A stretch of DNA of 64,000 nt from the NCBI GenBank assembly GCA_021810905.1, contig JAJZQH010000004.1, positions 124,001 through 188,000 of the forward strand. Reading direction: 5' to 3'. The position numbers and the translations under genes are program-made. Below the pieces are notes generated by a model. It did not search any database and had not been told where the DNA came from. It worked only from the letters and a program-made list of their open reading frames with translations. Positions within the stretch are counted from its first letter, which is position 1. Every line of letters starts with the position of its first letter. Below, in pieces: positions 8,369 to 61,257 of the stretch. This stretch comes from a bacterium. Lineage in GTDB: Bacteria; UBA10199; 2-02-FULL-44-16; JAAZCA01.

Positions 8369-8388
8369 ATAATTCCAGGGGACGAAGA

Positions 8389-10887: not shown

Positions 10888-10910
10888 TTTCTGTGCGAAC
10901 AGGAGTGAAC

Positions 10911-11999: not shown

Positions 12000-12014
12000 G
12001 GAAAGGGAGGCCCC

Positions 12015-12914: not shown

Positions 12915-14393
12915 GTGGCTGAAAAGAGCCTATTACAGAAAATCAAGGAGGCAGGTAGTCACACCTTAATATATGGCGTTGGCTCCGTTCTGCAGACTTT
13001 ACTGAGCTTCGTTTTGCTTCCTGTCTATACACGCTATTATACAACTGAGGTGTACGGAATACTTACTCTGCTGACGCTCTGTTCTACTCTGACCGGATCC
13101 GTATTCTATCTTGGAGCGTCATCTGCTCTTTCCAGATCGTATTTCGATTACGCAGACGAAAATGATCGAAAAAAAGTAATCAGCACATCCCTCTATATAA
13201 CGCTCGCTGGCGCAGTGATGCAGATTGCATTCGGTGTGCTTTCTGGAGGCCTGCTCTCGCGATATTTATTTGGTACTGATAAATATGCAGTTGCCGTGAT
13301 GATAATCCTGATTTCGTCCGCTGTAGCGTTTGTAAACACGCTTTTATATCTAATCCTGCGTTTTCAAAGGCATTCGTTGCGGGTAATATTTGTAAACCTG
13401 ATTTCACTGCTGGTAAATGCATCGCTCATTCTTTATTTTCTGCTCATTCTCAAGATTGGCGTTATGGCTCCAGTTCTCGGCACGTGCATCTCACAGGTGC
13501 TCGTGCTTTTCATTCTCTTCTGGAGCGTCAGGAAGTGTATAGTTAAGGATTATTCAAGAAAAGAAATCAGTATACAGCTTCGTTTCGGTATTCCTCAAAT
13601 CATCATTGGCTTAGCCACATATGTGCTCGTCTGGACAGATAGCTTCTTCATCAATAAATATCTTGGTTTGAATGACGTGGGAGTCTACGGTGCGGCATAT
13701 AAGCTAGGAATGATGATACAAGCTTTGTTTGTAGTTCCATTCTCACAGATCTGGGCGCCCATGCGCATGGAATACCGGCATGACAACAATGCGACAGAAT
13801 TCACGCGATTGATCATAACCTATTATTTTTTCATAGGGATGGCCATAACTACCGTCGTTTCGATATTTTCTCGAGAACTCATAATGCTCGTAACAGGCAA
13901 GGCGGCATATTTTGCTGCGTTCCCGGTGATATCAATCGTAATGTTTGCGTATCTTTTGTACGGCGTAGTTAACATTATCGACAATGGCATTCTCTTTTCA
14001 CGTAAGGTTATATATCACGTCTATATTTTCTGGTCGGTCATAGCGATAAAAGTCGTTCTCTGTATGTTGTTTATTCCCAGATATGGTTATATGGCCGCGG
14101 CGTATATCACCTTGATTACATACGGCTTAATGGTTACTCTCGTCTATGTCGTTTCGAATCACCTTCATAAAATCGAGTTCGAAAATTTCAGATTGTTCAA
14201 GATAATGGTTTGTGGCCTCGTCGCTTACGCTATCGCCTTGTTGCTGCCTTCTGAAATTAATCTATTCTCCTGTCTAGGAAAAATCAGCATTCTAAGTGCG
14301 TCATTTGTTTTCATGTATCTATTTGTCTTGAATCATAGGGAAAAGGGGAAAATTTCAGCGATATTGAGAGCAACAAGAATGGAGGACAATTGA
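12915..14393 (+). CDS. wzx: Wzx-type lipid-linked oligosaccharide flippase
   Basis: Polytopic inner-membrane protein of 492 residues with about 12-14 hydrophobic helices and the family N-terminus (helix with Gly-Val-Gly-Ser-Val-Leu-Gln, then Leu-Leu-Pro-Val-Tyr-Thr-Arg). It is predicted to move undecaprenyl-linked repeat units to the periplasm. The gene is visibly more AT-rich than its neighbours, as is usual for flippase genes and consistent with separate ancestry. GTG start. Its stop overlaps the next gene's TTG start. Confidence 0.88.
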   Translation: MAEKSLLQKIKEAGSHTLIYGVGSVLQTLLSFVLLPVYTRYYTTEVYGILTLLTLCSTLTGSVFYLGASSALSRSYFDYADENDRKKVISTSLYITLAGAVMQIAFGVLSGGLLSRYLFGTDKYAVAVMIILISSAVAFVNTLLYLILRFQRHSLRVIFVNLISLLVNASLILYFLLILKIGVMAPVLGTCISQVLVLFILFWSVRKCIVKDYSRKEISIQLRFGIPQIIIGLATYVLVWTDSFFINKYLGLNDVGVYGAAYKLGMMIQALFVVPFSQIWAPMRMEYRHDNNATEFTRLIITYYFFIGMAITTVVSIFSRELIMLVTGKAAYFAAFPVISIVMFAYLLYGVVNIIDNGILFSRKVIYHVYIFWSVIAIKVVLCMLFIPRYGYMAAAYITLITYGLMVTLVYVVSNHLHKIEFENFRLFKIMVCGLVAYAIALLLPSEINLFSCLGKISILSASFVFMYLFVLNHREKGKISAILRATRMEDN

Positions 14394-15166
14394 CGGTCTC
14401 ATCAGCGCTTCGTAACAAAATTCGTTCACGGATTCTAACCCTCGGTTCATGGATCACGTTGGGCCACGCGGGGATCGCCGAAATCATGGCCAATGCTGGA
14501 TTTGACTGGTTGGTAGTCGATCTTGAACACAGCGTTGTAAGCATCGAGGTTGCAGGCGATCTAATACGCACCATCGATCTTTGCGGCGTTGCACCCCTGG
14601 TCAGGCTCACTTCCAATGATCCTGATCAGATCAAGCGCGTTATGGATGCAGGTGCTCACGGTATCGTTGTGCCGATGGTCAATTGCCCAACCGATGCCGA
14701 AAGAGCGGTTGCAGCCACTCGATATGCCCCACGCGGATCCCGAGGTGTCGGTTTGGCAAGGGCGCAGGGGTATGGCGCCGCATTCAAGGAGTATTTGCAA
14801 TGGCAGGGCGATGGCCCGATTGTGATCGTGCAGATCGAGCATAAGGACGCAATTGATCAATTGGAAAAAATACTGAAAGTTCCGGGGGTCGATGGATTCA
14901 TTATCGGTCCCTACGATCTCTCCTGTTCCATGGGTATTCCCGGTCAATTTGAGAATCAAGATTTCATCAATGCGATGAATTGTATTCGCGAGACAGGGAG
15001 ACGACTCGGTTGTTCGGCGGGAATTCATATCGTCGAACCGGATCCGCAACAGCTTGAACAATCGATTCGCGATGGATACACATTCATCGCATACAGCGTC
15101 GATATCAGGATGCTTGATGTCAGCGTGCGGCAGGGGATTGAAAAAATGAGGGGGATCAAATTATGA
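14390..15166 (+). CDS. HpcH/HpaI-family aldolase
   Basis: Class II metal-dependent pyruvate aldolase family (HpaI, 2-keto-3-deoxyglucarate aldolase), 258 residues. Visible: Val-Asp-Leu-Glu-His-Ser near 43, Arg-Leu-Thr-Ser-Asn-Asp, the metal-binding Glu in Val-Gln-Ile-Glu-His-Lys and Asp in Ile-Gly-Pro-Tyr-Asp-Leu-Ser. Such enzymes make or cleave C-C bonds between pyruvate and an aldehyde, giving 3-deoxy-2-ulosonic acids. TTG start at 14390 with GGAGG at 14381-14385, overlapping the flippase stop. Directly followed (ATGA overlap) by a CMP-sugar-acid transferase, so I infer it makes, rather than degrades, a ketoacid sugar. Confidence 0.85.
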   Translation: MTVSSALRNKIRSRILTLGSWITLGHAGIAEIMANAGFDWLVVDLEHSVVSIEVAGDLIRTIDLCGVAPLVRLTSNDPDQIKRVMDAGAHGIVVPMVNCPTDAERAVAATRYAPRGSRGVGLARAQGYGAAFKEYLQWQGDGPIVIVQIEHKDAIDQLEKILKVPGVDGFIIGPYDLSCSMGIPGQFENQDFINAMNCIRETGRRLGCSAGIHIVEPDPQQLEQSIRDGYTFIAYSVDIRMLDVSVRQGIEKMRGIKL

Positions 15167-15936
15167 ACGCGATCGGCATTATTCCTGCACGAATGGGTTC
15201 CAGCAGGTTTCCGAACAAGCCCATGGCTAAGATTCTTGGCATGCCGATGATCGGACATGTGTATCAGAGGAGCCTTCTGGCGAAACATCTTGATGAGGTA
15301 TGGGTTGCCACCTGCGATCGGGAGATTTATGACTACATTAAGTCATCAGGCGGAAACGCCGTGATGACTGCCGACTCGCACGAACGCGCGTCCGAGCGTG
15401 TTGCCGAGGCGGTTGTTAAGATCGAAAAGGAAAATAATGAAACGATTGAGTATGCGCTCATGATCCAGGGAGATGAACCAATGCTGGATCCGTCGATGCT
15501 GGATCAATTGTCTGTTGAGGCCGTCAATACGCCGGAAGTCGGCGTAATCAACTTGATGGCGCGCATCGGCAGTGCTGAGGAATTCGCAAGTCCGAACGTC
15601 GTCAAAGTCGTGGTAGATCGAAATGGTTTTGCCCTGTACTATTCCCGCGAACCCATACCTTCGAAAAAGAAGTATCGTGCGGACGACTTACCCATGTGGA
15701 AGCAGCTGGGCCTCATCATGTTCCGACGAGATGCCCTTCTTGGCTATGTCCGCATGGAACCGACGCGGCTCGAGATCATTGAGTCGGTTGACATGAATCG
15801 ATATCTTGAAAATAACGTCAGGATCAAAATGGCTGTTGCCGATTTTGAATCTCAGGCGGTCGATACCGAAGAAGATCTTCGTAAAGTTGACGCGTTGATG
15901 AAGGCGGATAAGTACGTCCGCCTGTACATGAGGTGA
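15163..15936 (+). CDS. KdsB-like CTP:ulosonate cytidylyltransferase
   Basis: Related to CMP-Kdo synthetase (about 250 residues; this is 257). It has Ile-Pro-Ala-Arg-Met-Gly-Ser-Ser-Arg-Phe-Pro-Asn-Lys-Pro, Gln-Gly-Asp-Glu-Pro and Ser-Arg-Glu-Pro-Ile-Pro, all typical. The usual Ser-Gly-Thr-Asp-Arg segment reads Ala-Ser-Glu-Arg-Val, so the substrate pocket may differ from Kdo. No KdsA or Kdo-8-P phosphatase gene is nearby; the upstream aldolase is the likely source of substrate. Predicted product: CMP-activated 3-deoxy-2-ulosonic or similar acid. Confidence 0.82.
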   Translation: MNAIGIIPARMGSSRFPNKPMAKILGMPMIGHVYQRSLLAKHLDEVWVATCDREIYDYIKSSGGNAVMTADSHERASERVAEAVVKIEKENNETIEYALMIQGDEPMLDPSMLDQLSVEAVNTPEVGVINLMARIGSAEEFASPNVVKVVVDRNGFALYYSREPIPSKKKYRADDLPMWKQLGLIMFRRDALLGYVRMEPTRLEIIESVDMNRYLENNVRIKMAVADFESQAVDTEEDLRKVDALMKADKYVRLYMR

Positions 15937-15944
15937 ATGGGATC

Positions 15945-16928
15945 ATGAAAGAATCCGATATTCGAAAACGCGATGTGCTTAACAGGTATCTGGAGCTGGT
16001 CGAGGCGGATGCACGTGAGATATTTCGAGATCGATCCGGTTTTCAGCAGATCGCATGCCCCGCCTGCCTCGCAAACAATGCCGAACCCCAATTCGAAAAA
16101 TCAGGTTTTCAGTATGTCCAGTGCCGTCAGTGTAATACGCTCTATCTCAGCCCTCGACCGACCTACGAACATCTGATGCAGATCTATACGGATTCGCCGT
16201 CAACGCGATACTGGGTTGAGGAATTTTTCATGCCCATGGTCGAGGCTCGGAGGGAGAAAATCTTTCGCCCGCGTGCGGAGTTTATCACGTTGCAATTTCC
16301 GCAAGTGCGAACGGGCGCAATAGCCGATATCGGCGCGGGCTTCGGCCTTTTTCTGGAGGAGGTCCGTAAGTTGTGGCCTGAGGCGAACCTTACGGCAATC
16401 GAGCCCTCTCAGGATATGGCGGGCATTTGCAGAAAAGGTGGTTTCCGCGTCATAGAGGAAATGCTGGAGGACGTGGATGAAGCGACGGGGAAATACGAGC
16501 TCCTTACCGCCTTCGAATTGTTCGAACATCTCCATGATCCGGAGCGTTTCCTGAATAACGTAGGCCGACTGCTGGTCAAGGGAGGTTATGTCTACTTGAC
16601 TACGCTCAATGGGCTGGGGTTTGATATTCAACTGCTATGGGATCGATCCAAGAGCGTTTCGCCCCCTCACCATATCAATTTTTTCAATCCATCATCGATG
16701 CAGAAGCTTCTCGAAAGAACAGGTTATCAGGTGATCGGCATTTCGACGCCTGGCGAACTTGATTGGGATATTGTCGAAGGCGCATGGCGTCATGAAGGAA
16801 AGAATCCTGGAAGGTTCTTCTGCACATTTTCAGAAAATGGGTCGGCTGAATCAAAAAAAGAATTACAGGCATGGATAAGGAAATATAACTTCAGTTCTCA
16901 CATGCGAGTCGTAGCGAGGAAGCTCTGA
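15945..16928 (+). CDS. SAM-dependent methyltransferase with N-terminal zinc-ribbon-like motif
   Basis: 327 residues. The N-terminus has two Cys pairs (Cys-Pro-Ala-Cys near 43 and Cys-Arg-Gln-Cys about 25 residues later) followed by Tyr-Leu-Ser-Pro-Arg-Pro, a layout common in sugar C- and O-methyltransferases of polysaccharide and antibiotic clusters. The class I SAM fold follows (Ile-Gly-Ala-Gly-Phe-Gly near 131; Phe-Glu-His-Leu-His-Asp-Pro). ATG 15945 has AGGTGA 8 bp upstream; a GTG at 15933 overlapping the previous stop is an alternative. It may methylate the sugar made by this module; the site is unknown. Confidence 0.82.
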   Translation: MKESDIRKRDVLNRYLELVEADAREIFRDRSGFQQIACPACLANNAEPQFEKSGFQYVQCRQCNTLYLSPRPTYEHLMQIYTDSPSTRYWVEEFFMPMVEARREKIFRPRAEFITLQFPQVRTGAIADIGAGFGLFLEEVRKLWPEANLTAIEPSQDMAGICRKGGFRVIEEMLEDVDEATGKYELLTAFELFEHLHDPERFLNNVGRLLVKGGYVYLTTLNGLGFDIQLLWDRSKSVSPPHHINFFNPSSMQKLLERTGYQVIGISTPGELDWDIVEGAWRHEGKNPGRFFCTFSENGSAESKKELQAWIRKYNFSSHMRVVARKL

Positions 16929-16929
16929 C

Positions 16930-17970
16930 ATGACTGGAAAAAAACAACTTAGAGTTGGGATCGCAGGATACGGTGTGGTTGGCAAGCGTCGCCACCATTA
17001 CATAGATCAGAATCCGGCATTTCGCACCATCGCTGTGAGCGATGTGACTACGGAGAGGGAGGGTGAAGGTCCCGATGGAGTCGTCTATTTCAAGGATTTC
17101 GAAAAATTGTATGATTGCGGCTTGGATGTTCTGTTTGTGAGCCTGCCAAATTACCTGGCGGCGGATGCGACGATCAGGGCCCTTGAGCGCGACATCCACG
17201 TGTTCTGCGAAAAACCGCCTGCGTGTAACGTCAGCGATGTACGGCGCGTAATCGAGGTGGAAAAGAATCATCCGAGGATCAGGTTGAAATATGGATTCAA
17301 TCACCGCTATCATTACTCCGTCATTGAAGCGAAGCGTGTCATTGATTCGGGCGCCTTCGGAAAGGTCACCAATATCCGCGGCGTCTATGGAAAGAGCAGC
17401 ATCATTCCGTTTTCAGGCGGATGGCGCTCCGAGCGAAAATTGGCGGGCGGAGGCATCCTGCTGGATCAGGGAATTCATATGCTCGACATGATTCGCTATT
17501 TCACGGGCGACTATGACGAAATCAAGAGTTTTGTCTCGAACGACTATTGGTGCCACGACGTCGAGGATAATGCCTACGCGATCATGAGAAACAAAGAAGG
17601 ATGCGTGGCCATGATCCACTCAACGGCTACGCAGTGGCAGCATAAGTTCAGGCTTGAAATTACCCTGAACGAGGCGCTCATGGAGTTGACCGGTATCCTC
17701 TCCGGGTCGAAGAGTTATGGAGAGGAGAAGCTCCGGTTGATTCCGCGCAAGGAAGGGTGCGTGGTGGGATCCTTCGAGGAACAGACGACGTCATATCTTG
17801 ACGATCATTCTTGGCGCGATGAGGTGAATGAGTTCGCCGATATCGTGGTGCAGGGAAAACCGGTTGAAAACGGCAACAGCACCGATGCGCTCAAGGTAAT
17901 GGAGATGGTCTTTAAGATCTACAATGCGGACAACAGGTGGAGAGAGACCTATAACATTGAGAAAGCCTAA
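16930..17970 (+). CDS. Gfo/Idh/MocA-family oxidoreductase
   Basis: NAD(P)-dependent sugar or cyclitol dehydrogenase, 346 residues. N-terminal Rossmann motif Gly-Ile-Ala-Gly-Tyr-Gly-Val-Val-Gly, the family catalytic Glu-Lys-Pro-Pro near 100, Gly-Phe-Asn-His-Arg-Tyr and Gly-Gly-Gly-Ile-Leu-Leu-Asp-Gln-Gly-Ile-His with the active-site Asp/His. Members oxidise hydroxyls of nucleotide sugars or inositols. It begins 1 bp after the methyltransferase stop and precedes the SIS isomerase. Confidence 0.88.
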   Translation: MTGKKQLRVGIAGYGVVGKRRHHYIDQNPAFRTIAVSDVTTEREGEGPDGVVYFKDFEKLYDCGLDVLFVSLPNYLAADATIRALERDIHVFCEKPPACNVSDVRRVIEVEKNHPRIRLKYGFNHRYHYSVIEAKRVIDSGAFGKVTNIRGVYGKSSIIPFSGGWRSERKLAGGGILLDQGIHMLDMIRYFTGDYDEIKSFVSNDYWCHDVEDNAYAIMRNKEGCVAMIHSTATQWQHKFRLEITLNEALMELTGILSGSKSYGEEKLRLIPRKEGCVVGSFEEQTTSYLDDHSWRDEVNEFADIVVQGKPVENGNSTDALKVMEMVFKIYNADNRWRETYNIEKA

Positions 17971-17984
17971 GAGAGGAGTGTACC

Positions 17985-18596
17985 ATGAACAACATCGATA
18001 CGCTGTTTACGAAAACGGAAAACCTGGGTGATTTTGCTCAAGGGTATTTTACCTACCTTAAGAAGGTGCTCGACGGCATCGAAACTGCTTCGATCAATGC
18101 CCTCGAATCTGAACTTGAAGCAGCCAGGGCGGACGGGCAGACGATTTTTGTCGTCGGCAATGGGGGTTCTGCTGCGACCGCCACGACAATGGCCAACGAT
18201 ATCGGCTTTGACATCATCAAGAAGACCGGTGTGAAGAAGCCGTTCAAGGTCTTCTCGCTGACAGATAACAGCTCTGTGATGACCGCGATCGCTAATGACG
18301 TAGGCTACGAAAATTTGTTTATCAATCAGCTCAGGATACACTACCAACCCGGTGACAGGCTGCTCGTGATCTCTGCAGGCGGCAATTCACCGAACGTGGT
18401 GAATGCTGCGGAGTGGGTCAGATCGCGGGGCGGGCGAGTCATTGGATTCCTGGGATTCGACGGCGGCAAACTCCGGAATATGTGCGATGTCGTCATCCAC
18501 GTGCCGACGGTCAAGGGCGAGTACGGCCCCGTCGAAGACGCACACCTTATCATGAACCACATCCTTGCACACTGGTTCCAGTGCAAGTTGAAATAG
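17985..18596 (+). CDS. SIS-domain phosphosugar isomerase (GmhA-like)
   Basis: 203 residues. SIS fold with phosphate-binding Gly-Asn-Gly-Gly-Ser-Ala-Ala near 57-63 and Ser-Ala-Gly-Gly-Asn-Ser-Pro. Its architecture is that of sedoheptulose-7-phosphate isomerase GmhA. Strong GAGGAG ribosome site. No heptose kinase (HddA) or phosphatase (GmhB) is adjacent, so it may supply a ketose or aldose phosphate to the aldolase/cyclase instead of making ADP- or GDP-heptose. Confidence 0.88.
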   Translation: MNNIDTLFTKTENLGDFAQGYFTYLKKVLDGIETASINALESELEAARADGQTIFVVGNGGSAATATTMANDIGFDIIKKTGVKKPFKVFSLTDNSSVMTAIANDVGYENLFINQLRIHYQPGDRLLVISAGGNSPNVVNAAEWVRSRGGRVIGFLGFDGGKLRNMCDVVIHVPTVKGEYGPVEDAHLIMNHILAHWFQCKLK

Positions 18597-18637
18597 GATC
18601 AGCGAAAAGTTTCAAACTACATCGGAGAGTGAAAGAT

Positions 18638-19558
18638 ATGGTCGCGCAAAGAATATTGATCGGCCCATCGTCGTTCGCGGAAATCGATAAGGGACCGCTG
18701 AAGAAACTTACCGGGGCTGGATTTCAGGTTATCGATAACCCGTACAAGAGGAAGTTGACGCGCGAGGAGTTGAAGGAACTTCTGCGCGATGACGTCTGCG
18801 GGATCGTCGCGGGCCTTGAGCCGCTGGATCGCGACGTGCTTCAGGGCAGGAAGCTAAAGGTGATTTCGCGTGTCGGCTCCGGCCTCTCCAACGTCGATCT
18901 CGATGCGTGCCGTGAACTCGGCATCAAGGTATGTTCGACTCCGAATGGTCCTACTGAAGCAGTTGCTGAATTGACGATGGGCTCTTTGCTCGCCATGCTC
19001 CGCATGATACCGCAGATGAGCGAAGCCCTTCATGGGGGAAGGTGGGAGAAACGCATCGGAACGCAGTTGCAGGGCAAGACAGTTGTTATCGTTGGGTATG
19101 GGCGGATTGGTCGGCGGGTCGGCGAGCTCTTGCGTCCATTTGGAGTGCAGCTTGTGGTCGTGGACCCGAAAATCGATGCCTCATCTCTCGCGGATGAGCA
19201 GCTGATGACGCTTCAGGGCGCGCTGCCGATAGCCGATATAGTCACGCTGCACAATAGCGGTGAAGCATGCCTTATCGGTGAAGAAGAGATATCGCGCATG
19301 AAAACGGGTGTTTTTCTGCTGAACGTAGCCAGGGGCGGGGTCATTTCGGAAGCGGCATTGGCCGATGGGATAAAGAAGGGAAGCGTTGCCGGCGCTTGGC
19401 TGGATACCTTCGCCAAGGAACCATATCGTGGAGTTCTTGAAGGACTTCCGCAGGTGATCCTCACACCTCATGTCGGTTCATACACGACTGAATGCCGGAT
19501 CGGCATGGAGAATGAGGCCGTTTCCAATCTGCTCAGCGCGTTGAACATTAACGGATAG
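18638..19558 (+). CDS. D-2-hydroxyacid dehydrogenase (phosphoglycerate-dehydrogenase-like)
   Basis: 306 residues, the catalytic and NAD domains of the SerA family without the C-terminal ACT domain, so not a complete biosynthetic SerA. Motifs: Arg-Val-Gly-Ser-Gly-Leu-Ser-Asn-Val-Asp (substrate Arg), Gly-Tyr-Gly-Arg-Ile-Gly-Arg (NAD), Asn-Val-Ala-Arg-Gly-Gly, Lys-Glu-Pro and His-Val-Gly-Ser (catalytic pair). Start ATG 18638 with a GGAGAG site; the open frame reaches back to 18413 inside the SIS gene and is rejected there. It may reduce or oxidise a 2-keto/2-hydroxy acid in the module. Confidence 0.87.
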   Translation: MVAQRILIGPSSFAEIDKGPLKKLTGAGFQVIDNPYKRKLTREELKELLRDDVCGIVAGLEPLDRDVLQGRKLKVISRVGSGLSNVDLDACRELGIKVCSTPNGPTEAVAELTMGSLLAMLRMIPQMSEALHGGRWEKRIGTQLQGKTVVIVGYGRIGRRVGELLRPFGVQLVVVDPKIDASSLADEQLMTLQGALPIADIVTLHNSGEACLIGEEEISRMKTGVFLLNVARGGVISEAALADGIKKGSVAGAWLDTFAKEPYRGVLEGLPQVILTPHVGSYTTECRIGMENEAVSNLLSALNING

Positions 19559-19562
19559 GATT

Positions 19563-20312
19563 ATGAAGATCGATTTTTCAGACAAGGTTGTGCTGATAAC
19601 CGGCGCTACTCGCGGCATCGGACGGCAGATTGCCGATGACATGGAGGAATGCGGCGCCAGTTTGTTGTTGGTGGGTTCTGATCAGAAACGCGCGGATGAG
19701 CTCAATGTCGACGCGGAGAAAAGAAAATTGAGGCGCCGGTATTATGCCGCGAATTTTACCAACGGGACGGCGGTCGAGGAACTGATAGATGAGATCTGCA
19801 GCAGTAACCGCGTTGACGCGTGCATCAACAATGCGGGGATCAACAAGCTCAACTCGATTGATGAAATCAAGAATGAAAATTGGGACGATATCATTTCCGT
19901 GAATCTCCAGGCGCCCATGATCATCACCCGGCGCGTCAGCCAGGGAATGAAGGAACGTCGGTACGGGCGGATTGTCAATATTTCGTCCATCTTCGGCACG
20001 ATCAGCAAGGCGAAGCGATCTCTCTACAGTGTCTCTAAATTTGGCCTTCGCGGTTTGACAGTCGCGAGTGCCCTGGATCTGGCACCCTATAATGTACTGG
20101 TTAATACGGTGTCTCCCGGGTTCGTGCAGACGGAGCTCACCGAGCGCATCCTTAAGAAAGATGAGATGGAGCAGCTGGCCTTGCAGGTTCCGCTCGGCCG
20201 TTTTTCAAGACCGGAGGAGATTTCGAAGGCGGTTTTATTTCTTGCGAGCGACTTGAACACGTATATTACGGCACACAATCTTGTTGTTGACGGAGGCTAT
20301 GTCAATGTCTGA
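19563..20312 (+). CDS. Classical short-chain dehydrogenase/reductase (FabG-like)
   Basis: 249 residues with Thr-Gly-Ala-Thr-Arg-Gly-Ile-Gly (NADP site near 15), Asn-Asn-Ala-Gly-Ile, the catalytic Ser of Asn-Ile-Ser-Ser, and Y155/K159 (Tyr-Ser-Val-Ser-Lys). The C-terminal Val-Asp-Gly-Gly-Tyr is standard. The substrate is unknown. It overlaps the cyclase gene by 8 bp, which suggests coupled expression and a role on a cyclic or open-chain intermediate. Confidence 0.9.
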   Translation: MKIDFSDKVVLITGATRGIGRQIADDMEECGASLLLVGSDQKRADELNVDAEKRKLRRRYYAANFTNGTAVEELIDEICSSNRVDACINNAGINKLNSIDEIKNENWDDIISVNLQAPMIITRRVSQGMKERRYGRIVNISSIFGTISKAKRSLYSVSKFGLRGLTVASALDLAPYNVLVNTVSPGFVQTELTERILKKDEMEQLALQVPLGRFSRPEEISKAVLFLASDLNTYITAHNLVVDGGYVNV

Positions 20313-21369
20313 CACGATTTCGATTCAATCAAGGATGCGAGACTATGCCGTATACTTCCGTGATAATGTTGCGGCTGATATCGAGAGCGCCTGCGGGGAG
20401 CGAGCCTTCTTCGTTATCGATTCCCATGTCTGGAAATTATATGGGAATCTCTTTTCGGGGATGCCGGAAGAGAGAGTCGTCGTCATGGAGCCGACGGAGG
20501 AGAATAAGTCACTCGATAAATCCAAAGAGCTGATCGAATGTCTGGTCGAAAAGCGGATCAGGAAGAACAACGCTCTTGTTGCAGTCGGCGGCGGAATTAC
20601 GCAGGATGTCACCGCGTTCACCGCATCTGTCCTTTACAGGGGCATCGAGTGGAAATTCGTTCCCACGACGTTGCTGGCGCAGGGCGACAGCTGTATAGGG
20701 AGCAAGACCTCGATCAATCTTGGCATGAACAAAAATCTCGTTGGAAATTTCTATCCTCCATCCGCGGTCTTCATCGACCTGAACTTCCTGAGTTCCCTGG
20801 AATTAAGGGACATTCAGTCAGGTATGGGAGAGATGATGCATTTCTTTGTTTATGCCGGAAGCCCTTATCTCGAAAAGATGGTCGGGCACTACAAGGAGCT
20901 GATCGCCGACAGATCTAAGCTGCGCGAGTATATCAGGGAAAGCTTGCTGATTAAGAAAAGCGTCGCTGAAGTCGATGAATACGATAAAGGCGAACGAAAT
21001 AAATTCAATTACGGACATACCTTCGGGCACGCCCTGGAGGCGATCTCGAATTACGAGTTGCGGCACGGCCAAGCCGTTACCGTCGGAATGGATCTTGCGA
21101 ACTATATAGCGACCAATTACGGCATGATGGATCGCGATACGTTCGGAACATTGCATAACCTCTTGAAGGTCAATATTCCTCAATATGATTACCGCGGAAT
21201 CAATATGGATGCCTATCTAAAGGCACTGTCAAAGGATAAGAAGAATCTTGGCAATGACCTTGTTTGCATTTTGGCGGAGAGGCCTGGAAGGTTGGTCAAA
21301 CATCGCATGGCGATGGACGATCGGTTCCAGGCGCTCGTTCGCGAATATTTTCAAGGCGTGATGAACTAA
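20305..21369 (+). CDS. 3-dehydroquinate-synthase-like sugar phosphate cyclase
   Basis: 354 residues, length and fold of the AroB superfamily (dehydroquinate synthase, 2-deoxy-scyllo-inosose synthase, valiolone-type synthases). NAD-binding Gly-Gly-Gly-Ile-Thr-Gln-Asp-Val (95-102), Lys-Thr-Ser-Ile-Asn ... Lys-Asn-Leu-Val-Gly, presumed metal ligands E176, H238 (Asn-Tyr-Gly-His-Thr-Phe-Gly-His) and a His in Arg-His-Gly-Gln-Ala-Val. The Lys normally three residues after the first ligand is His here (Gly-Met-Gly-Glu-Met-Met-His179), and Gly-Asp is Gln-Asp in the NAD loop, so a substrate other than DAHP is likely. Start ATG 20305, CGGAGG 8 bp upstream. Nothing else around it belongs to aromatic amino-acid synthesis. 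Confidence 0.85.
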   Translation: MSDTISIQSRMRDYAVYFRDNVAADIESACGERAFFVIDSHVWKLYGNLFSGMPEERVVVMEPTEENKSLDKSKELIECLVEKRIRKNNALVAVGGGITQDVTAFTASVLYRGIEWKFVPTTLLAQGDSCIGSKTSINLGMNKNLVGNFYPPSAVFIDLNFLSSLELRDIQSGMGEMMHFFVYAGSPYLEKMVGHYKELIADRSKLREYIRESLLIKKSVAEVDEYDKGERNKFNYGHTFGHALEAISNYELRHGQAVTVGMDLANYIATNYGMMDRDTFGTLHNLLKVNIPQYDYRGINMDAYLKALSKDKKNLGNDLVCILAERPGRLVKHRMAMDDRFQALVREYFQGVMN

Positions 21370-21395
21370 GTACCATTATTCGAGGGAGGATCAAG

Positions 21396-21746
21396 ATGAG
21401 TGCGCGGTTTGATCATATAGAAGTGCATGTCGATGACATCAACCGGTATTGCAGCTTTCTGAGCCGGCTTTTCGAAGGCGGAAATTATGAGGTGATCTCC
21501 ACGACCGGCACGTCGATGTATACCTCCCCGGATGGAATTCGCTTTGAGGTCAAGAAAAAGAAAGTTAGCGACGCGTCGATTGCGAGCGGTTTCTGCAACC
21601 CGTGCCTGAGGCGCCCGCATGCCAAGGCATTTATTGAAATGCTGGAGTTGGAAATAGACAGCGTCCGCGAAACGCCTTCCGGTCCCGTGTTTTTCTTCAA
21701 GGATCATGAAAATATCCTCTGGCACATGAAGGATCTCCCGCTGTAA
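21396..21746 (+). CDS. VOC/glyoxalase-fold small protein
   Basis: 116 residues. The opening Phe-Asp-His-Ile-Glu-Val-His-Val-Asp-Asp and ending (Pro-Val-Phe-Phe-Phe-Lys-Asp-His-Glu-Asn) match one vicinal-oxygen-chelate module, a metal-dependent fold used by epimerases, lyases and dioxygenases. Two cysteines lie in the middle (Cys-Asn-Pro-Cys). GGGAGGA ribosome site before ATG 21396. It may isomerise an intermediate of the upstream module; function not established. Confidence 0.72.
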   Translation: MSARFDHIEVHVDDINRYCSFLSRLFEGGNYEVISTTGTSMYTSPDGIRFEVKKKKVSDASIASGFCNPCLRRPHAKAFIEMLELEIDSVRETPSGPVFFFKDHENILWHMKDLPL

Positions 21747-21753
21747 AAATCGT

Positions 21754-22689
21754 ATGAACTATTTCGTACACGAAAAAGCGATTGTGGAATCGAACCAGAT
21801 TGGAAAGGGCACGCGCATTTGGGCGTTCGCTCATATCCTTCCGAAGGCCAAAATCGGCGCTGACTGCAACATTTGTGACCATGTTTTTATCGAGAATGAT
21901 GTGAGTGTTGGTGATCGCGTTACGATAAAATGTGGCGTGCAGCTCTGGGACGGTATCGATATTCATGACGACGTCTTCATAGGTCCGAACGTTACGTTTA
22001 CCAATGATCGTTTTCCTCGAAGCAAGCGGCATCTATCTAAGTATCCCATAATTACGGTTCGGCGAGGGGCTTCAATTGGTGCAAATGCCACGATTCTGCC
22101 TGGAATTAGTGTAGGGGAGAGGGCGATGGTTGGGGCTGGGAGTGTTGTGACCAGGGACGTTCCCTCGAACGCGGTTGTCCTTGGCAACCCCGCCAGGATA
22201 TACGGCCATGTCGATAAGGACGATAATATCGTTACCATGCAGAAGGAGAGCGGGATGCTTTCAGCCGATCGCGTTCAAAGCTGTTCCGTTGGAGGTTGTC
22301 GCCTTGTCAACATGCCGGTAGTGGATGAATCTCGGGGCACACTCAGCTTTGCTGAATACGGTGAGCATTTTTTCTTTGTTCCGAAAAGATATTTTCTGGT
22401 TTATAACGTTCCACACGGAGTATCCCGCGGAAACCATGCACATTATTCCCTCGAAGAGTTGTTGGTCTGCGTGAAGGGGAGTTGTACCGTACTGCTCGAT
22501 GACGGGAAGAACCGGGAAGAAGTCGAGCTCAGCAATCCCTATACTGGCCTGTACATTCCGCCACTTGTTTGGCGCATACAGTTCGGGCATACTCCCGATG
22601 CCGTGCTGCTCGTGTTGGCATCCGATTCGTATGATCCAGACGACTATATCAATGATTATGAAGCTTTTCAGAAAAGAGTCTCGAAGTGA
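21754..22689 (+). CDS. Fused N-acetyltransferase / dTDP-4-keto-6-deoxyhexose 3,4-ketoisomerase (WxcM-like)
   Basis: Two domains in 311 residues. Residues 1-150 form a left-handed beta-helix acyltransferase with hexapeptide repeats, like FdtC/WbpD-type enzymes. Residues about 175-305 form a cupin of the FdtA/QdtA ketoisomerase family (Arg-Gly-Asn-His-Ala-His, then Leu-Leu-Val-Cys-Val-Lys-Gly, and Pro-Pro-Leu-Val-Trp). The same fusion is described as WxcM. It catalyses the third and fifth steps to dTDP-3-acetamido-3,6-dideoxyhexose, after RmlA and RmlB. Fuc3NAc versus Qui3NAc cannot be told from sequence by eye. GTGA overlap with the aminotransferase. Confidence 0.88.
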
Positions 22690-33950: not shown

Positions 33951-33984
33951 AATTGTGGCGTGAAGGTGCCTCGTATAGATCATA

Positions 33985-34917: not shown

Positions 34918-34957
34918 ACGATAAATGGAGTTCGCGATCGATGATGGAAAGGAAACC

Positions 34958-40993: not shown

Positions 40994-41968
40994 ATGAAGC
41001 AAAATATGAAGCAACTCGTTGTCAATGATCCCTATCAGTTGAATTTCGCAAGGGCCGGGAAGGAATATGCCCGTTATCGAGAGTTGTGGGCATTGGCCGG
41101 ACAAAAAAAATACAGTGGAAGAGTCCCCCTGCATTTGGATTTCGATACCGTGGACGCATGTAACCTTCGCTGTTCTATCTGTCATGAACGTGGTCGGGTT
41201 CGCACCGGTACGAAGATGCCGCTTCAAATGGCTATGGAGGCGATCAGCCAGGGGGCGGGACGGGGACTTTATTCAGTCAATATCGGCGGCGTAGGCGAAC
41301 CGTATCTCCAGAAGCAAGCTCTTTATGAACTTGCTTCTTTTTCGGTAAAAAAGGGAATGTTGGATATCTTTGTGCACACAAATTTTCTTTTGCTCAAAGA
41401 TGATGATATCCATGCGACCATGGAATGCGGAATTACTTGCCTTTGTATTTCCGTAGATGCGATTACGCCTGAGACATACAAGAAGATCCGGGGTGGTGAT
41501 TTTGAAGCCGTGATGGAAAACGTCAGGAGGTTGAATGAGTACAAGAAACGGCGCTCGTTGCATTTTCCACTTGTGAGAGTCTCTGCCGTTCCCTGTGACG
41601 AAAACAACTATGAGCTCCCGCGTTTCTTTGATTATTGGGCTCCATATGCGGACGTGGTCGAGATACAGAGCTACAGATATGACAAGTCGCATGAAAACAA
41701 GCGGATGGTCGCTACTCATCCGGTTACAACATGTTCGTCGCCTTGGATGCGGCTGATGTATTGGCCTAACGGGGATGTCACTGCCTGTTGTTGCAAGGAT
41801 GGGCTCGGCAGGGATATTATTCTGGGCAACGTTTTGACGGAGAAAAAAGCGCTGGATGACTACTGGAACGGCCCCACCCTCAGCGGGATTCGTGAAGCCA
41901 TTTCGGACAACAATTGGGATGCTATTCCGTCGTGCAAGTCGTGTCTTTCCCGGACATTCAGCTATTAA
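40994..41968 (+). CDS. Radical SAM protein with SPASM-like C-terminus
   Basis: 324 residues. [4Fe-4S] motif C56-x3-C60-x2-C63 (Ala-Cys-Asn-Leu-Arg-Cys-Ser-Ile-Cys), a glycine-rich strand Gly-Gly-Val-Gly-Glu-Pro, and a C-terminal cysteine cluster (Thr-Cys-Ser-Ser, Ala-Cys-Cys-Cys, Cys-Lys-Ser-Cys) as in SPASM/twitch enzymes. Radical SAM enzymes of this type in O-antigen loci may epimerise, oxidise or dehydrate sugars. Reaction unknown. No B12 domain. Confidence 0.88.
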   Translation: MKQNMKQLVVNDPYQLNFARAGKEYARYRELWALAGQKKYSGRVPLHLDFDTVDACNLRCSICHERGRVRTGTKMPLQMAMEAISQGAGRGLYSVNIGGVGEPYLQKQALYELASFSVKKGMLDIFVHTNFLLLKDDDIHATMECGITCLCISVDAITPETYKKIRGGDFEAVMENVRRLNEYKKRRSLHFPLVRVSAVPCDENNYELPRFFDYWAPYADVVEIQSYRYDKSHENKRMVATHPVTTCSSPWMRLMYWPNGDVTACCCKDGLGRDIILGNVLTEKKALDDYWNGPTLSGIREAISDNNWDAIPSCKSCLSRTFSY

Positions 41969-41981
41969 GAGGGTAGCGGGC

Positions 41982-43751
41982 GTGCGTGACGTATCTCTCG
42001 TGACAACTGCGTTGGAAGAGTTCTGGGACACTTCTAAGCCGGTGGTTTTCCTGGGGGAGTGGTGCAGGCGTTACAGCCGCCGCGTTGCCTGGGGCTCTCT
42101 TGGCGATGAGGTGCTCCCGGCCCTGTGGAATGACAGGGCGGCTTTTCTCAAGGCATATGCATACGTCAACGATGTCTATGAAAATTATTTGCGTCTTCTG
42201 TCTGATACATTGAATGCCATCCATGGAAGGCGCTGCAGCGACCGATATTGGAGAATAGTGGCTGGCCCCTGGCTCTTTCATTATATACATATCCTCTACG
42301 ATCGATACTGTTCCATAGTGCAGGCGGAGAAACTCTATCCAGCTTTTACTTCAGTAGGACTGTCCACGGAGAACCACGTCACTCCAGAAAGTACACTTAA
42401 TTTTATCGAACTTGTCGGAGACGATCTTTATAACCTTCAATTATATACGAATATTCTGAAGTTTCAAGGGAACGACATTGCATGTATGAAGTATGATTTT
42501 AAGAAATGCCCGCTCCCTCGAACGAAGGCCGGTAGATCAATATGCTCTGCGCTCAAAAATGGCACGAGTATCCTCGCCTGCAACGTTATCTCCTCTTTGC
42601 GAAAAAAACGACCGATAGTGCTCCGCGAAGTGTATTTGCCAAGGCGGGAGCAGATGAAACTGTTCCTGAAAACGGGATTTAGGATGTGGCCGCATCATGG
42701 CCGAACGGATGAATATTCGAGTCGGCCTACGGATCATGCCGTCAGGGATTCGATTGTATTGAATGCAGGTTCGGAAGATCGGTTTGCGCGGTTGCTGTCT
42801 CGCATGCTTCCAGGCGACATTCCGAAGAGCCTTGTCGAAGATTATATCGCCATCGAAGACGGCGTCGGCAAAGCATATCCGCGAGACGTGTCGGCTATCG
42901 TAAGTGCCGTGTCTTGGTACTTTGATGAAAGTTTCAAATGCTGGGCCGCCGGCGAGTCTGAGAGGGGTGCGAAGCTGATCGGAATTCAGCATGGTGGCAA
43001 CTATGGAATCGATGAGCCATTTCAGTGCGAGGAGCATGAGCTTAAAATATCGGATTATTACAGTACATGGGGGTGGAAAAAATCAGCGGGCGGTGCGACA
43101 ACGATTTCCAGTGTGGCGACGAAGTTGGCTGGAAGAAAAAAAATACATGCGAGCAATGCCGAGGAGGGCCTACTCTATGTGGGGACGAGCTCTTTGCGCT
43201 ACCTCATCAGATTTCAAAATATGACCAGCTGTAAATATTCGGCATATATTGAATGGCAGCTGCGCTTCCTGGCTACCCTGACAGGCGATCTCCGTTCGAA
43301 ACTTCGAGTTCGTCTGCATCACAACGATTACGGTTGGGACATGAGGGAGCGTTTGTTATCTCAGTACCCTGATTTAAATATAGAGTCGTGGTCTCAATCC
43401 TATGAAGGAAGCCTCAGAAAATCTCGCATATGTATTATTAATAATTTGTCGACGACGTATACCGAGGCGTTGTCGGTGAACAAGCCGACGATTCTGTTCT
43501 GGGACCCCGAGACGTATCGACTGCGGGACGAAGCGAAACCATACTTCAAAGAGCTGTATGATAATGGACTATTGTATGAGAGTCCGGAGTCAGCTGCTTA
43601 TGCGCTCAAATCAGTCTACGACGATGTGGAGGGTTGGTGGAATGAAAATGCGCGTCAGGCGGCGGTGAAACGGTTTTGCGGCATATTTGCCAGGACTTCG
43701 CCTGATGCCGTCGATTTGTGGGCAAAGGAAATAATCCGATGCGTTCAGTGA
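41982..43751 (+). CDS. LIC12162-family transferase (putative)
   Basis: 589 residues. The start (Leu-Val-Thr-Thr-Ala-Leu-Glu-Glu-Phe-Trp), Phe-Leu-Gly-Glu-Trp-Cys-Arg-Arg-Tyr-Ser, and Arg-Tyr-Trp-Arg-Ile with Gly-Pro-Trp-Leu near 90 are hallmarks of the LIC12162 family, named from Leptospira O-antigen loci and often found beside NeuB-type genes. The C-terminal half has a GT-B/CMP-sugar-transferase-like look. GTG 41982 follows AGAGGG; an open frame back to 41856 is rejected because it runs through the radical SAM gene. Possibly the pseudaminyl transferase. Confidence 0.8.
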   Translation: MRDVSLVTTALEEFWDTSKPVVFLGEWCRRYSRRVAWGSLGDEVLPALWNDRAAFLKAYAYVNDVYENYLRLLSDTLNAIHGRRCSDRYWRIVAGPWLFHYIHILYDRYCSIVQAEKLYPAFTSVGLSTENHVTPESTLNFIELVGDDLYNLQLYTNILKFQGNDIACMKYDFKKCPLPRTKAGRSICSALKNGTSILACNVISSLRKKRPIVLREVYLPRREQMKLFLKTGFRMWPHHGRTDEYSSRPTDHAVRDSIVLNAGSEDRFARLLSRMLPGDIPKSLVEDYIAIEDGVGKAYPRDVSAIVSAVSWYFDESFKCWAAGESERGAKLIGIQHGGNYGIDEPFQCEEHELKISDYYSTWGWKKSAGGATTISSVATKLAGRKKIHASNAEEGLLYVGTSSLRYLIRFQNMTSCKYSAYIEWQLRFLATLTGDLRSKLRVRLHHNDYGWDMRERLLSQYPDLNIESWSQSYEGSLRKSRICIINNLSTTYTEALSVNKPTILFWDPETYRLRDEAKPYFKELYDNGLLYESPESAAYALKSVYDDVEGWWNENARQAAVKRFCGIFARTSPDAVDLWAKEIIRCVQ

Positions 43752-45324: not shown

Positions 45325-46155
45325 ATGATTGCGACTATAAAAAAAACGCTATCCATCTATTACCAGCGGCTGCTGACTCATTCACTCCGCTGTGCAATGA
45401 ATGAACAAGGCTTGTCCGATCTTGTGCGAAGACTCGAAGAACTTGTACCTGATATTACCGATCAATATTCTTCGTTCAAGATCGACACGCCCTATTTGAA
45501 TGCAAATGTTCGAAATATTCATGCATTTCAAATAGCGCTGGTAAATGAGGTGATCGACGAATTCAATCAGCCGACGATTGTTGATATAGGCGATTCGTCG
45601 GGAACTCATCTTGAGTATATCCTGAAACTTCATCAGGATATGAAAAAGATCAGGTGTCTCAGCGTTAATCTGGACTCCAACGCAGTTGAAAAAATACGAA
45701 AAAAGGGGATGGAAGCCGTTCACGCTAGAGCTGAAGAATTACAGAATTACAATATCAACGCCGACATCTTTCTCTGTTTTGCAACTCTCGAACATTTGTC
45801 GGACCCTTGCAGGTTTCTCCACGAGCTTTCTTCAAAGACCAATGCCAAATATCTCATTGTCACGATTCCGTATCAACGCCACACGAGGGTGGGTATGTAT
45901 CATATCCGCAATGATCGAGCAGGTGACGTCTCTGCGGAAAATACGCATATCGTTGAGTTCTGCCCTGAGGATTTCAGGCTGATTGCGCAACATTCCGGAT
46001 GGAAGATACAAAAAGAACGAATTTATTATCAGTATCCGAGAAGGCATTTCCTGCGCTTGACTCGGAGTATCTGGAAGAGAAGCGATTTTGAAGGTTTTTA
46101 TGGCGTCATATTGGCGAAGGATTCCAGGTGGTCATCACGGTACACGGATTGGTGA
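45325..46155 (+). CDS. Class I SAM-dependent methyltransferase
   Basis: 276 residues. SAM-binding Val-Asp-Ile-Gly-Asp-Ser-Ser-Gly-Thr-His near 84-93, an Asp ending the next strand, and Phe-Ala-Thr-Leu-Glu-His-Leu-Ser-Asp-Pro. The first Gly of the usual GxGxG is Asp. Similar proteins act on sugars or on lipid/protein substrates in polysaccharide loci. Its 3' end is 13 bp before the next gene. Confidence 0.82.
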   Translation: MIATIKKTLSIYYQRLLTHSLRCAMNEQGLSDLVRRLEELVPDITDQYSSFKIDTPYLNANVRNIHAFQIALVNEVIDEFNQPTIVDIGDSSGTHLEYILKLHQDMKKIRCLSVNLDSNAVEKIRKKGMEAVHARAEELQNYNINADIFLCFATLEHLSDPCRFLHELSSKTNAKYLIVTIPYQRHTRVGMYHIRNDRAGDVSAENTHIVEFCPEDFRLIAQHSGWKIQKERIYYQYPRRHFLRLTRSIWKRSDFEGFYGVILAKDSRWSSRYTDW

Positions 46156-46168
46156 GAAGCGAAAAGAC

Positions 46169-48031
46169 ATGAATGACGTTCTGATTACATTTCCCGGTAG
46201 AAGCGTCGCAAAAGCCAGAAGGCATCTGGCGAATGAGGGTGCTGTCCGGTGGCTCTATCTGGGGACGAGCTATGTAAGGCTTCGCGTTCTTGAGGAGATG
46301 CTGGGAAATGGATTCACGCGCATCGACATTGCAAGGCTTCACGAGGACGTCGCGCATGATCTGAAAACGGACTATGTGCGCTGGATCGACGCCTTGAACA
46401 GGAAATACGGCGGCGACCCGGACTGGTGGTACGGCCCTGTGTCGTCGAGAAACGTCTATTACACCAAGCTCTTTCAGTGTCTCTGTTACCTGGAAGTGCT
46501 CGATAGGTTGGCCGATGGCAACGGCGGGGCGCCGCAACTGATCGTGGTGGAGTCGTTGGGGCTGGCACGTGCCGTTCAGAGATGGGCGCGGGCAAAACAC
46601 GTTGCTGCGAAGATCGTCAGCCCGGCAACAGGTCAATGGCTGTTTATGAAGAACGTGGCAATAAGTTTTCTGCAGTGGTTCCAGTCGTGTTGCGTGATGG
46701 CACTACGGTGGATATCGGCGCGCGGATCGATGCTTCTCTTTGGCAAGGGCATGTCGACGAGGCCGCTCGACGTCATCGTCGATATGTACGCGCACAGGGA
46801 TAGCTTTGTCGACGACGGGTCTTTCAAAGATCGATATTTTCCAGGGCTGCTTGCGTATTTGGATCGACAGGGCGCTGAAATATGCGTCCATCCCAATATC
46901 TGCAAAGTTGGATATTCTTATTGGAACATTTACAAGAAAATTCGCAGGAGCAGCACGCCGTTCATAGTGATGGACGATTATCTTCGTCCGACTGACTATC
47001 TGAAGGCGATGCTGTATCCGTTGAGGGCTGTTTTTAAGAAGTGGACTGTGCCGCCCCTGCGAGGGCACGATCTTCAGGAGTTGGCCAGAGAGGAAACGTG
47101 GGAAACGCTCTCCAGTAGTGGACCTGACGCTGTCCTGATGAATCGATTCTATGCGCGCCTGGGAAAAAAGGGAATGTTACCGAAGACCATCATAAGGTGG
47201 TATGAGAATCAGACCTTGGACAAGGCGATGATCGCCGGAGTGCGTTCCGCTCCCGAGGCGTCGAAGATCGTCGGGGTGCAGATGTTCGTGCATTCGGCCA
47301 ATTATCTGAGTCTTTACCCGATATCGTCAGAAGTCGAAGCGAGGTTGGCCCCAGACGTCCTCCTGGAGACCAGCGAATATCAGTGTCAGAGAGCGGCCTC
47401 TTATACGCATACGATCGTGTGTAAGCCCGCCGCGGCCTTGAGATATGCGTATCTGTTTGAGAAGGGCGAAGCGGCTCGTGATCTTGTGAAAAGGGGAATG
47501 ACTATACTTGTCGTTCCGCCATACGGCATCGATGAGGGGATCGAGATGCTGGACATGGTCCGTGCCTGGTTGAGGCAATCACCGGAGAATGTCAGCGTGA
47601 AAATCAAAGTACATCCCGATCATGTTGTGGAAGACTATGCGCGAAGATGCGGGGTAGGTGTCAAGGATGATGCTGTCAGTATTACGCACATGAATATGAG
47701 GGATGCTCTGGACTCAGCTTCGATCGTGATCTCTTCCAATTCCAGCGCTATGGTCGAAGCTGCAGCGCGCGGTGTGCCTTTGATCATTATGGGAAGGCAG
47801 ACCACGCTCAATATGAACCCTCTTGAGGATGCGGAATCTCCGACGATCACGCAGTGTTATTCAGCGGACGAGTTGTCGAAGGCTATCGAAACGTACAGGG
47901 TGATGCTGGAACGCACATCGAATGAGGACCTTCAAAAGATCGGAGCATCTCTTCGAAATAGATATTTCACCGAAACCAACGAGCTGACGTTGCGTCCTTT
48001 TTTGGACTCCGCACATGCAATCATCCATTAG
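46169..48031 (+). CDS. Large predicted glycosyltransferase-like surface-carbohydrate protein
   Basis: 620 residues; no confident family. The C-terminal third shows a GT-B-like donor domain: Ile-Lys-Val-His-Pro-Asp-His, then Ser-Ser-Asn-Ser-Ser-Ala-Met-Val-Glu-Ala-Ala-Ala-Arg-Gly-Val-Pro, the pattern of CDP-glycerol/capsule-type transferases. A hydrophobic stretch near 160-185 might anchor it. It recalls the TIGR04326 (LIC13510-type) surface carbohydrate proteins of Leptospira, with low certainty. ATG 46169 chosen, after GAGAAG; 46088 lies inside the methyltransferase gene. Confidence 0.65.
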   Translation: MNDVLITFPGRSVAKARRHLANEGAVRWLYLGTSYVRLRVLEEMLGNGFTRIDIARLHEDVAHDLKTDYVRWIDALNRKYGGDPDWWYGPVSSRNVYYTKLFQCLCYLEVLDRLADGNGGAPQLIVVESLGLARAVQRWARAKHVAAKIVSPATGQWLFMKNVAISFLQWFQSCCVMALRWISARGSMLLFGKGMSTRPLDVIVDMYAHRDSFVDDGSFKDRYFPGLLAYLDRQGAEICVHPNICKVGYSYWNIYKKIRRSSTPFIVMDDYLRPTDYLKAMLYPLRAVFKKWTVPPLRGHDLQELAREETWETLSSSGPDAVLMNRFYARLGKKGMLPKTIIRWYENQTLDKAMIAGVRSAPEASKIVGVQMFVHSANYLSLYPISSEVEARLAPDVLLETSEYQCQRAASYTHTIVCKPAAALRYAYLFEKGEAARDLVKRGMTILVVPPYGIDEGIEMLDMVRAWLRQSPENVSVKIKVHPDHVVEDYARRCGVGVKDDAVSITHMNMRDALDSASIVISSNSSAMVEAAARGVPLIIMGRQTTLNMNPLEDAESPTITQCYSADELSKAIETYRVMLERTSNEDLQKIGASLRNRYFTETNELTLRPFLDSAHAIIH

Positions 48032-48038
48032 GCCGACT

Positions 48039-61247: not shown

Positions 61248-61257
61248 GAACGATGCC

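Follow-up and report, generated by a model that had tools for sequence, protein, structure and literature searches.

A conserved nine-gene operon with an AroB-related cyclase and a KdsB homologue, proposed to make a CMP-activated surface sugar

Bacteria activate the acidic sugar 3-deoxy-D-manno-octulosonic acid (Kdo) with cytidine monophosphate (CMP) in a pathway that runs KdsD-KdsA-KdsC-KdsB-WaaA. Here, this pathway is compared with a nine-gene operon at 14390-21746 of a 64,000-nucleotide stretch of DNA (the window, C15:124001-188000 of host genome G000, which is 2.98 Mb long and 99.5% complete) from a bacterium of the phylum UBA10199. With moderate confidence, the operon is proposed to make a CMP-activated ulosonic-acid-type sugar, other than Kdo or the neuraminic (Neu), pseudaminic (Pse) and legionaminic (Leg) acids, destined for the surface polysaccharide whose genes surround the operon. 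What carries this proposal is computed, namely the gene content, its conservation as a unit, the ruling-out of shikimate metabolism and classical Kdo synthesis as its role, a near-intact active site of the dehydroquinate synthase (DHQS) type, and an altered KdsB pocket that matches the partner genes.

The operon shares with the CMP-Kdo pathway a KdsB-family enzyme, an SIS-type isomerase and possibly a 3-deoxy-2-ulosonate logic. In contrast to that pathway, it has a pyruvate-type aldolase beside KdsB, an altered predicted KdsB pocket, and an extra cyclase, Gfo oxidoreductase, short-chain dehydrogenase (SDR) and D-2-hydroxyacid dehydrogenase (2HADH), in a genome with no KdsA or WaaA found. Another described route is the Kdo8N pathway of Shewanella, which uses KdnA, KdnB and KdsB. 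Relatives of the operon carry an aminotransferase and a second Gfo beside KdsB, which resembles oxidation and transamination before CMP activation. However, these relatives use a HisC-like aminotransferase and a Gfo, from other families than KdnA and KdnB, while the window has an aldolase instead.

The cyclase shares its fold and catalytic machinery with the sugar phosphate cyclases, among which EEVS, DOIS and aminoDHQS have been listed (PMC4426668). Unlike EEVS and DOIS, the window cyclase is nearer to DHQS, keeps nearly all residues of the DHQS site, and sits in surface glycan clusters with cytidine triphosphate (CTP) transferases. Its family, TIGR04425, has an entry that gives a name without a pathway, to which genomic partners, an active site and a likely substrate class are added here. 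Cyclitol pathways with VOC epimerases also exist, and the VOC-type protein adjoining the window cyclase recalls them. Caryose is a carbocyclic O-antigen sugar. So is bradyrhizose, whose genes were unknown when it was described, apart from an 11-gene candidate cluster, in a text with no mention of a dehydroquinate synthase, an aldolase or a cytidylyltransferase (PMC4743980). Both sugars are a precedent for carbocycles in bacterial surface glycans. A literature search for this gene set, TIGR04425 or TIGR04326 brought up nothing on the pathway, and no mention of TIGR04425 in the papers covered.

Nine genes conserved as a unit

Families were assigned with Pfam profiles, NCBIfam cut-offs and PDB sequence searches, and folds with AlphaFold models and structure searches. 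The operon consists of nine consecutive open reading frames, all on the + strand, four of which are labelled core for their joint recurrence elsewhere:

14390..15166, + strand: HpcH/HpaI-type (class II) aldolase (PF03328, 2e-36)
15163..15936, + strand: KdsB-family cytidylyltransferase with a predicted non-Kdo pocket (CTP_transf_3, 2e-47; NF009905, 276.4 bits)
15933..16928, + strand: S-adenosylmethionine methyltransferase with CxxC motifs at the N-terminus (PF13489, Methyltransf_23, 7e-22)
16930..17970, + strand: Gfo/Idh/MocA oxidoreductase, core (PF22725/PF01408, 3e-24)
17985..18596, + strand: SIS-domain sugar-phosphate isomerase, GmhA-like, core (PF13580, SIS_2, 1e-16)
18638..19558, + strand: 2HADH, SerA/GhrB-like (PF02826, 4e-40), best start ATG 18638
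19563..20312, + strand: SDR, core (PF13561, 2e-52)
20299..21369, + strand: AroB-related sugar-phosphate phospholyase/cyclase of TIGR04425, core, start ATG 20299 or 20305
21396..21746, + strand: small protein, probable VOC superfamily member and possible epimerase (weak glyoxalase fold evidence)

An earlier sequence-only reading of this DNA had described the genes as consecutive and tightly coupled. This is confirmed by their shared direction and by the intergenic gaps, which measure -4, -4, +1, +14, +41, +4, -8 and +26 bases. Of the nine families that it named, eight are firmly assigned by Pfam (2e-52 to 1e-16), while the VOC assignment is weak. Pfam and PDB sequence searches gave no significant hit for this ninth protein. 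Its partner beside the cyclase of locus L035, which is 70% identical, scores 16.1 bits against PF00903 Glyoxalase (E 0.015), below the cut-off of 20.6, and a low-confidence model of the window protein (pLDDT 55) mainly matched VOC/glyoxalase folds (best E 1e-3). Membership of the VOC superfamily is plausible, though short of proof.

Several of the other proteins score well below named equivalogs. For example, the SIS protein is under the GmhA threshold (TIGR00441, 89.7 bits against 209.45) and has altered GmhA site residues, and the 2HADH reaches 191.7 bits against a cut-off of 454 for the phosphoglycerate dehydrogenase equivalog. The closest solved structures to the Gfo/Idh protein are inositol dehydrogenase and glucose-fructose oxidoreductase. 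The aldolase retains its motifs (D-x-E-H, R72, Q148/E150 and GPYDLS), whose residues are invariant in the aldolase alignment. By score it is set apart from catabolic HpaI enzymes, being far under the HpaI, GarL and RhmA equivalogs (174.5, 151.5 and 141.8 bits against 368.8, 406.75 and 441). Entries named hydroxyketoacid aldolase are among its PDB matches, and its family includes enzymes accepting hydroxypyruvate as well as pyruvate. Pfam and NCBIfam profiles detected neither KdsA nor a NeuB/PseI-type synthase among the nine genes.

Related loci were surveyed with an alignment-based scan of genome contigs, in which G and L numbers denote genomes and compared loci, and all locus and phylum counts are lower bounds among the matches listed. 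Using window proteins alone as BLAST queries, the Gfo, SIS, SDR and cyclase genes were found close together in L032-L035, L044-L047, L049, L050, L052, L056 and L061. Together with the window, these 13 loci make at least 14 core loci in at least five phyla (UBA10199, Thermodesulfobacteriota, Bacteroidota, Pseudomonadota and Bdellovibrionota). The set is thus kept together in distantly related bacteria, a point that the sequence-only reading had put forward for checking, and chance grouping is excluded by this cross-phylum conservation.

The order aldolase-KdsB-2HADH-Gfo-SIS-SDR-cyclase was found again in a Cytophagaceae bin (L046), and the SDR adjoins the cyclase in most loci. In L033 and L034, a window-type aldolase adjoins a PseF-like CTP transferase. 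The proposed partnership of aldolase and CTP transferase therefore holds in all four aldolase-bearing cyclase loci (window, L046, L033 and L034), and the aldolase is also near KdsB in the cyclase-free L145 and L146. In the aldolase-less L035, L044, L045, L049, L050, L056 and L061, KdsB is accompanied by a HisC-like aminotransferase, a second Gfo or both, in many cases along with a methyltransferase and a TIGR04326 protein. A different CTP-transferase cluster lies near the cyclase in L047, L048, L051 and L053. Overall, a CTP transferase is found within 6 kb of the cyclase in 15 of 25 cyclase-family loci and in none of 53 ordinary AroB loci (Fisher p 7e-10, a descriptive figure, as queries were drawn partly from family loci).

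The set is built from three combining sub-units: aldolase with KdsB and 2HADH, Gfo with SIS and 2HADH, and SDR with cyclase. Between the window and L032, the SIS proteins are 80% identical and the cyclases 41%, a contrast that would fit an exchange of parts.

Active sites of the cyclase and the KdsB homologue

The cyclase scores 422.7 bits against TIGR04425 (cut-off 400), an NCBIfam hypothetical equivalog named 'AroB-related putative sugar phosphate phospholyase (cyclizing)'. The term "unrecognised", first applied to this module, is therefore too strong for the cyclase. Both Pfam DHQ synthase domains, N and C, are present (4e-34 and 6e-30), DHQS structures are the top structural matches of its AlphaFold model (pLDDT 92), and a PDB search ranks DHQS (170 bits) above DOIS (117) and EEVS (93). 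The score for the true-AroB profile TIGR01357 is 264.7, below the cut-off of 305. In a tree of 60 sequences, the window cyclase and 25 others are split from 34 ordinary AroBs with an SH-aLRT support of 100, which places it outside the true AroB clade, and three sequences first labelled AroB fall on the TIGR04425 side. In plasmid and phage collections, cyclase matches were all below 60% identity and annotated, where at all, as AroB.

Numbered as in Aspergillus nidulans DHQS, with positions placed by motif, the window cyclase agrees with DHQS at 14 of the 16 active-site positions scored. These include the metal ligands, K356, and K250 and R264, to which recognition of the substrate carboxylate is assigned in DHQS. 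The changed positions are K197, now His, and L267, now Phe. The family splits into K197 and H197 groups, the latter made up of nine of 23 members (window, L035, L044-L048, L056 and L061). Because nearly all DHQS active-site residues are retained, the site points to DHQS-type chemistry on a substrate that is still a carboxylated sugar phosphate, albeit a somewhat different sugar. An EEVS-type route from sedoheptulose 7-phosphate to a C7-cyclitol was also considered, but the DHQS-like nature of the site speaks against it.

The C-terminal domain of KdsB binds Kdo (PMC3149649). Set against ten strong CTP_transf_3 homologues encoded in the same genomes, mostly KdsBs of housekeeping type as judged from sequence score and location, the KdsBs of the module have lost H181, Y185, E210 and Q211 (window numbering), with Q181, I185, D210 and M211 in the window. 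Aldolase-partnered KdsBs (window and L046) have 'ES(V/I)DMNR' in common, and the L046 set is similar to that of the window (Q...DM). Six KdsBs partnered with a second Gfo have an I-F-D-S set and 'E(S/A)CDSNR'. The predicted pocket type follows the partner genes, and because the sets differ with those partners, at least two CMP products are suggested.

A proposed route and its alternatives

We infer the substrates, the order of steps, the product and any carbocycle in the CMP-sugar as follows. The SIS protein would convert between the ketose and aldose forms of a sugar phosphate. The Gfo/Idh protein and the 2HADH would turn the sugar by oxidation into a carboxylated keto form, deliver a donor resembling hydroxypyruvate, or both, and the 2HADH could provide hydroxypyruvate for the aldolase. 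The TIGR04425 enzyme would carry out oxidation and phosphate elimination by the DHQS mechanism, with ring closure probable, and the SDR would reduce the ketone of its product. From pyruvate (or hydroxypyruvate) and an aldehyde, the aldolase would form a 2-keto acid, to be coupled to CMP by the KdsB homologue, with the methyltransferase and VOC protein possibly tailoring the sugar. In L147 (G042), the order is Gfo-SIS-2HADH-phosphatase-aldolase, with a phosphatase of the inositol-monophosphatase family and no TIGR04425 cyclase. A phosphatase in place of the cyclase is what one would predict if removal of the phosphate is the task of the cyclase. With this gene content, with no KdsA or WaaA, and with no NeuB or PseI inside, the operon fits none of the Kdo, Neu, Pse or Leg pathways, as had been argued from the sequence.

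Several observations weigh against a single route to a CMP-ulosonate. The KdsB homologue had been called divergent, which holds for its predicted pocket, altered and not of the classical Kdo kind, but not for its family score, which passes both KdsB cut-offs (TIGR00466, 174 against 155.2; NF009905, 276.4 against 255). In addition, L145 and L146, second sets in G036 and G037, contain aldolase, SDR, KdsB and 2HADH with neither cyclase nor SIS. In L054-L060 (Lachnospiraceae, Ruminococcaceae and Methylacidiphilales), the SDR and cyclase are found with an acetolactate-synthase-like enzyme, and with no KdsB or window-type aldolase. These loci mostly also carry an FGGY kinase and an HMGL-type (4-hydroxy-2-oxovalerate-aldolase-like) protein, and possibly encode a branched-sugar pathway. 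The cyclase and the aldolase-KdsB pair, which separate in some genomes, may thus belong to different branches. Finally, a dehydroquinate-type ring is without an anomeric keto group, the usual site of activation by KdsB, which is a weak point of the proposal. Given that chemistry, the carbocycle may be a side part, there may be two separate branches, or KdsB may act on a tertiary hydroxyl by the carboxylate; a quinate-like ring does offer such a hydroxyl next to its carboxylate.

The carbocyclic form of the proposal is accordingly graded apart. A quinate-like carbocyclic ulosonate analogue, with a DHQS-type ring made outside shikimate metabolism in several phyla and built into or becoming a CMP-activated surface sugar, is rather unlikely. 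The one linear route to a carbocyclic CMP-sugar drawn in the sequence-only reading is unproven, as aldolase-KdsB-2HADH sets occur without the cyclase and cyclase-SDR sets without aldolase or KdsB. That reading is partly supported overall, with a hypothetical carbocyclic end product.

The strongest alternative, less likely than the main proposal, is a two-branch scheme, in which aldolase, 2HADH and KdsB would make a non-carbocyclic CMP-ulosonate, with Gfo, SIS, SDR and cyclase forming a carbocyclic or deoxy acid of their own, to be attached to the same glycan. The partial sets of L145, L146 and L054-L060 are what such a division would leave. However, cyclase, SIS, Gfo and CTP transferase closely co-occur in several phyla, and the 2HADH is common to both supposed branches.

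It is improbable that the TIGR04425 enzyme eliminates phosphate with no ring closure, after which the SDR would yield a terminally deoxygenated or branched ulosonate. L147, otherwise similar but with a simple phosphatase, hints that what matters may be the removal of phosphate, and the exchange of K197 for His in the window and the other H197 members points the same way. Against this stand the DHQS fold and the other scored DHQS catalytic residues, all of which are kept, metal ligands and K356 among them.

Still less credible is an aldolase route to ordinary Kdo, from pyruvate and D-arabinose or its phosphate, followed by activation to CMP-Kdo. This would agree with the family score of the KdsB homologue and with a genome search of G000 that found no KdsA. 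However, no WaaA-type Kdo transferase was found in G000 and relatives of its class (0 of 20 genomes), though O-antigen-like clusters are present, and the housekeeping KdsB pocket residues are lost. Nine module- or cyclase-bearing genomes outside the host phylum also have KdsA, and this route would leave the cyclase, SDR, Gfo and 2HADH without explanation. Because G000 has neither KdsA nor WaaA, the KdsB homologue is not assigned to ordinary Kdo-lipid A, and a role in classical Kdo synthesis is unlikely given these absences and the altered predicted pocket. The sole other strong CTP_transf_3 protein of G000 is an aminotransferase fusion in a separate pseudaminic-acid cluster.

The doubt cast earlier on the AroB label is borne out by the host genome, where the shikimate pathway was not found, judged by chorismate synthase and AroB. 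A genome search of G000 detected no second DHQ synthase/AroB besides the TIGR04425 cyclase, and no chorismate synthase, for which the same model finds one in 18 of 18 other genomes searched. Because both are missing, the window cyclase is not a shikimate AroB. Its placement in the cluster by chance as the shikimate enzyme, a role suggested by its being the only AroB homologue in G000, is rejected as next to impossible given the chorismate synthase missing from a 99.5% complete genome, its TIGR01357 score and separate clade, and the presence of a second AroB homologue beside a TIGR04425 cyclase in G041 and G001. The missing chorismate synthase also suggests auxotrophy for aromatic amino acids. 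The idea that the aldolase replaces the supply of 3-deoxy-D-arabino-heptulosonate 7-phosphate where the shikimate pathway is missing failed, as the aldolase-bearing G036, G037 and G048 have chorismate synthase.

The surrounding glycan region and wider meaning

The operon is set within a larger glycan region, from which three further features are listed:

12915..14393, + strand: Wzx-like polysaccharide flippase, its family read from sequence, directly upstream with a 4-base overlap with the aldolase
41856..43751, + strand: TIGR04331 LIC12162-family transferase (520 bits, cut-off 225), probably for the neighbouring pseudaminic acid
46088..48031, + strand: surface carbohydrate protein resembling TIGR04326 (68.2 bits, E 5e-19, under the cut-off of 250), a candidate for using the CMP-sugar

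Downstream, the nine genes are followed by one gene of the WxcM/FdtA type and one for a DegT-type aminotransferase. Together, the RmlB-, RmlA-, WxcM/FdtA- and DegT-type genes at 10875-12887 and 21754-23789 suggest a dTDP-3-amino-3,6-dideoxyhexose pathway within which the nine-gene set is inserted.

A complete-looking pseudaminic-acid pathway lies at 31822-40982, about 10 kb downstream of the nine genes and separate from them. It includes two fusions, of a cytidylyltransferase with a class III aminotransferase (34925-37036) and of PseG with a GNAT acetyltransferase (37036-38535), along with PseB- and PseC-type genes, an aldo/keto reductase, a formyltransferase and PseI (39906-40982). TIGR04326-type genes are found near KdsB in five module loci, and the TIGR04326-like transferase of the window would use the CMP-sugar. 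In a comparable neighbourhood of Herbaspirillum, a 'surface carbohydrate biosynthesis protein' and a LIC12162-family transferase follow sialic-acid genes (PMC6679464).

Other observations concern the wider region. A UDP-glucuronate-epimerase-like gene (8365-9585) has two in-frame inserts, at about 8770-8875 and 9205-9325. In both, a short palindrome precedes a tandem repeat of the 7-base unit GGGTCAC, and a partial copy lies at 8555-8587. Two B12-binding radical SAM proteins are also encoded (48015-49514 and 61141-62745), one of which comes closest to the Sden_1168 P-methyltransferase family, at 305 bits and short of the cut-off.

The general kind of system, CMP-sugar biosynthesis, is known, and the cyclase family had already been noticed by NCBI. 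What is gained is that TIGR04425, an NCBI 'putative' family, is now tied to a conserved pathway, which makes its function testable. This also corrects a likely misannotation, as the labels 'AroB' and 'KdsB' imply shikimate and Kdo pathways that are apparently missing from G000. Should the product be a carbocyclic or non-Kdo ulosonate, it would represent a new class of acidic surface sugar, reached by a CMP-sugar route based on an aldolase and not on a phosphoenolpyruvate-dependent synthase.

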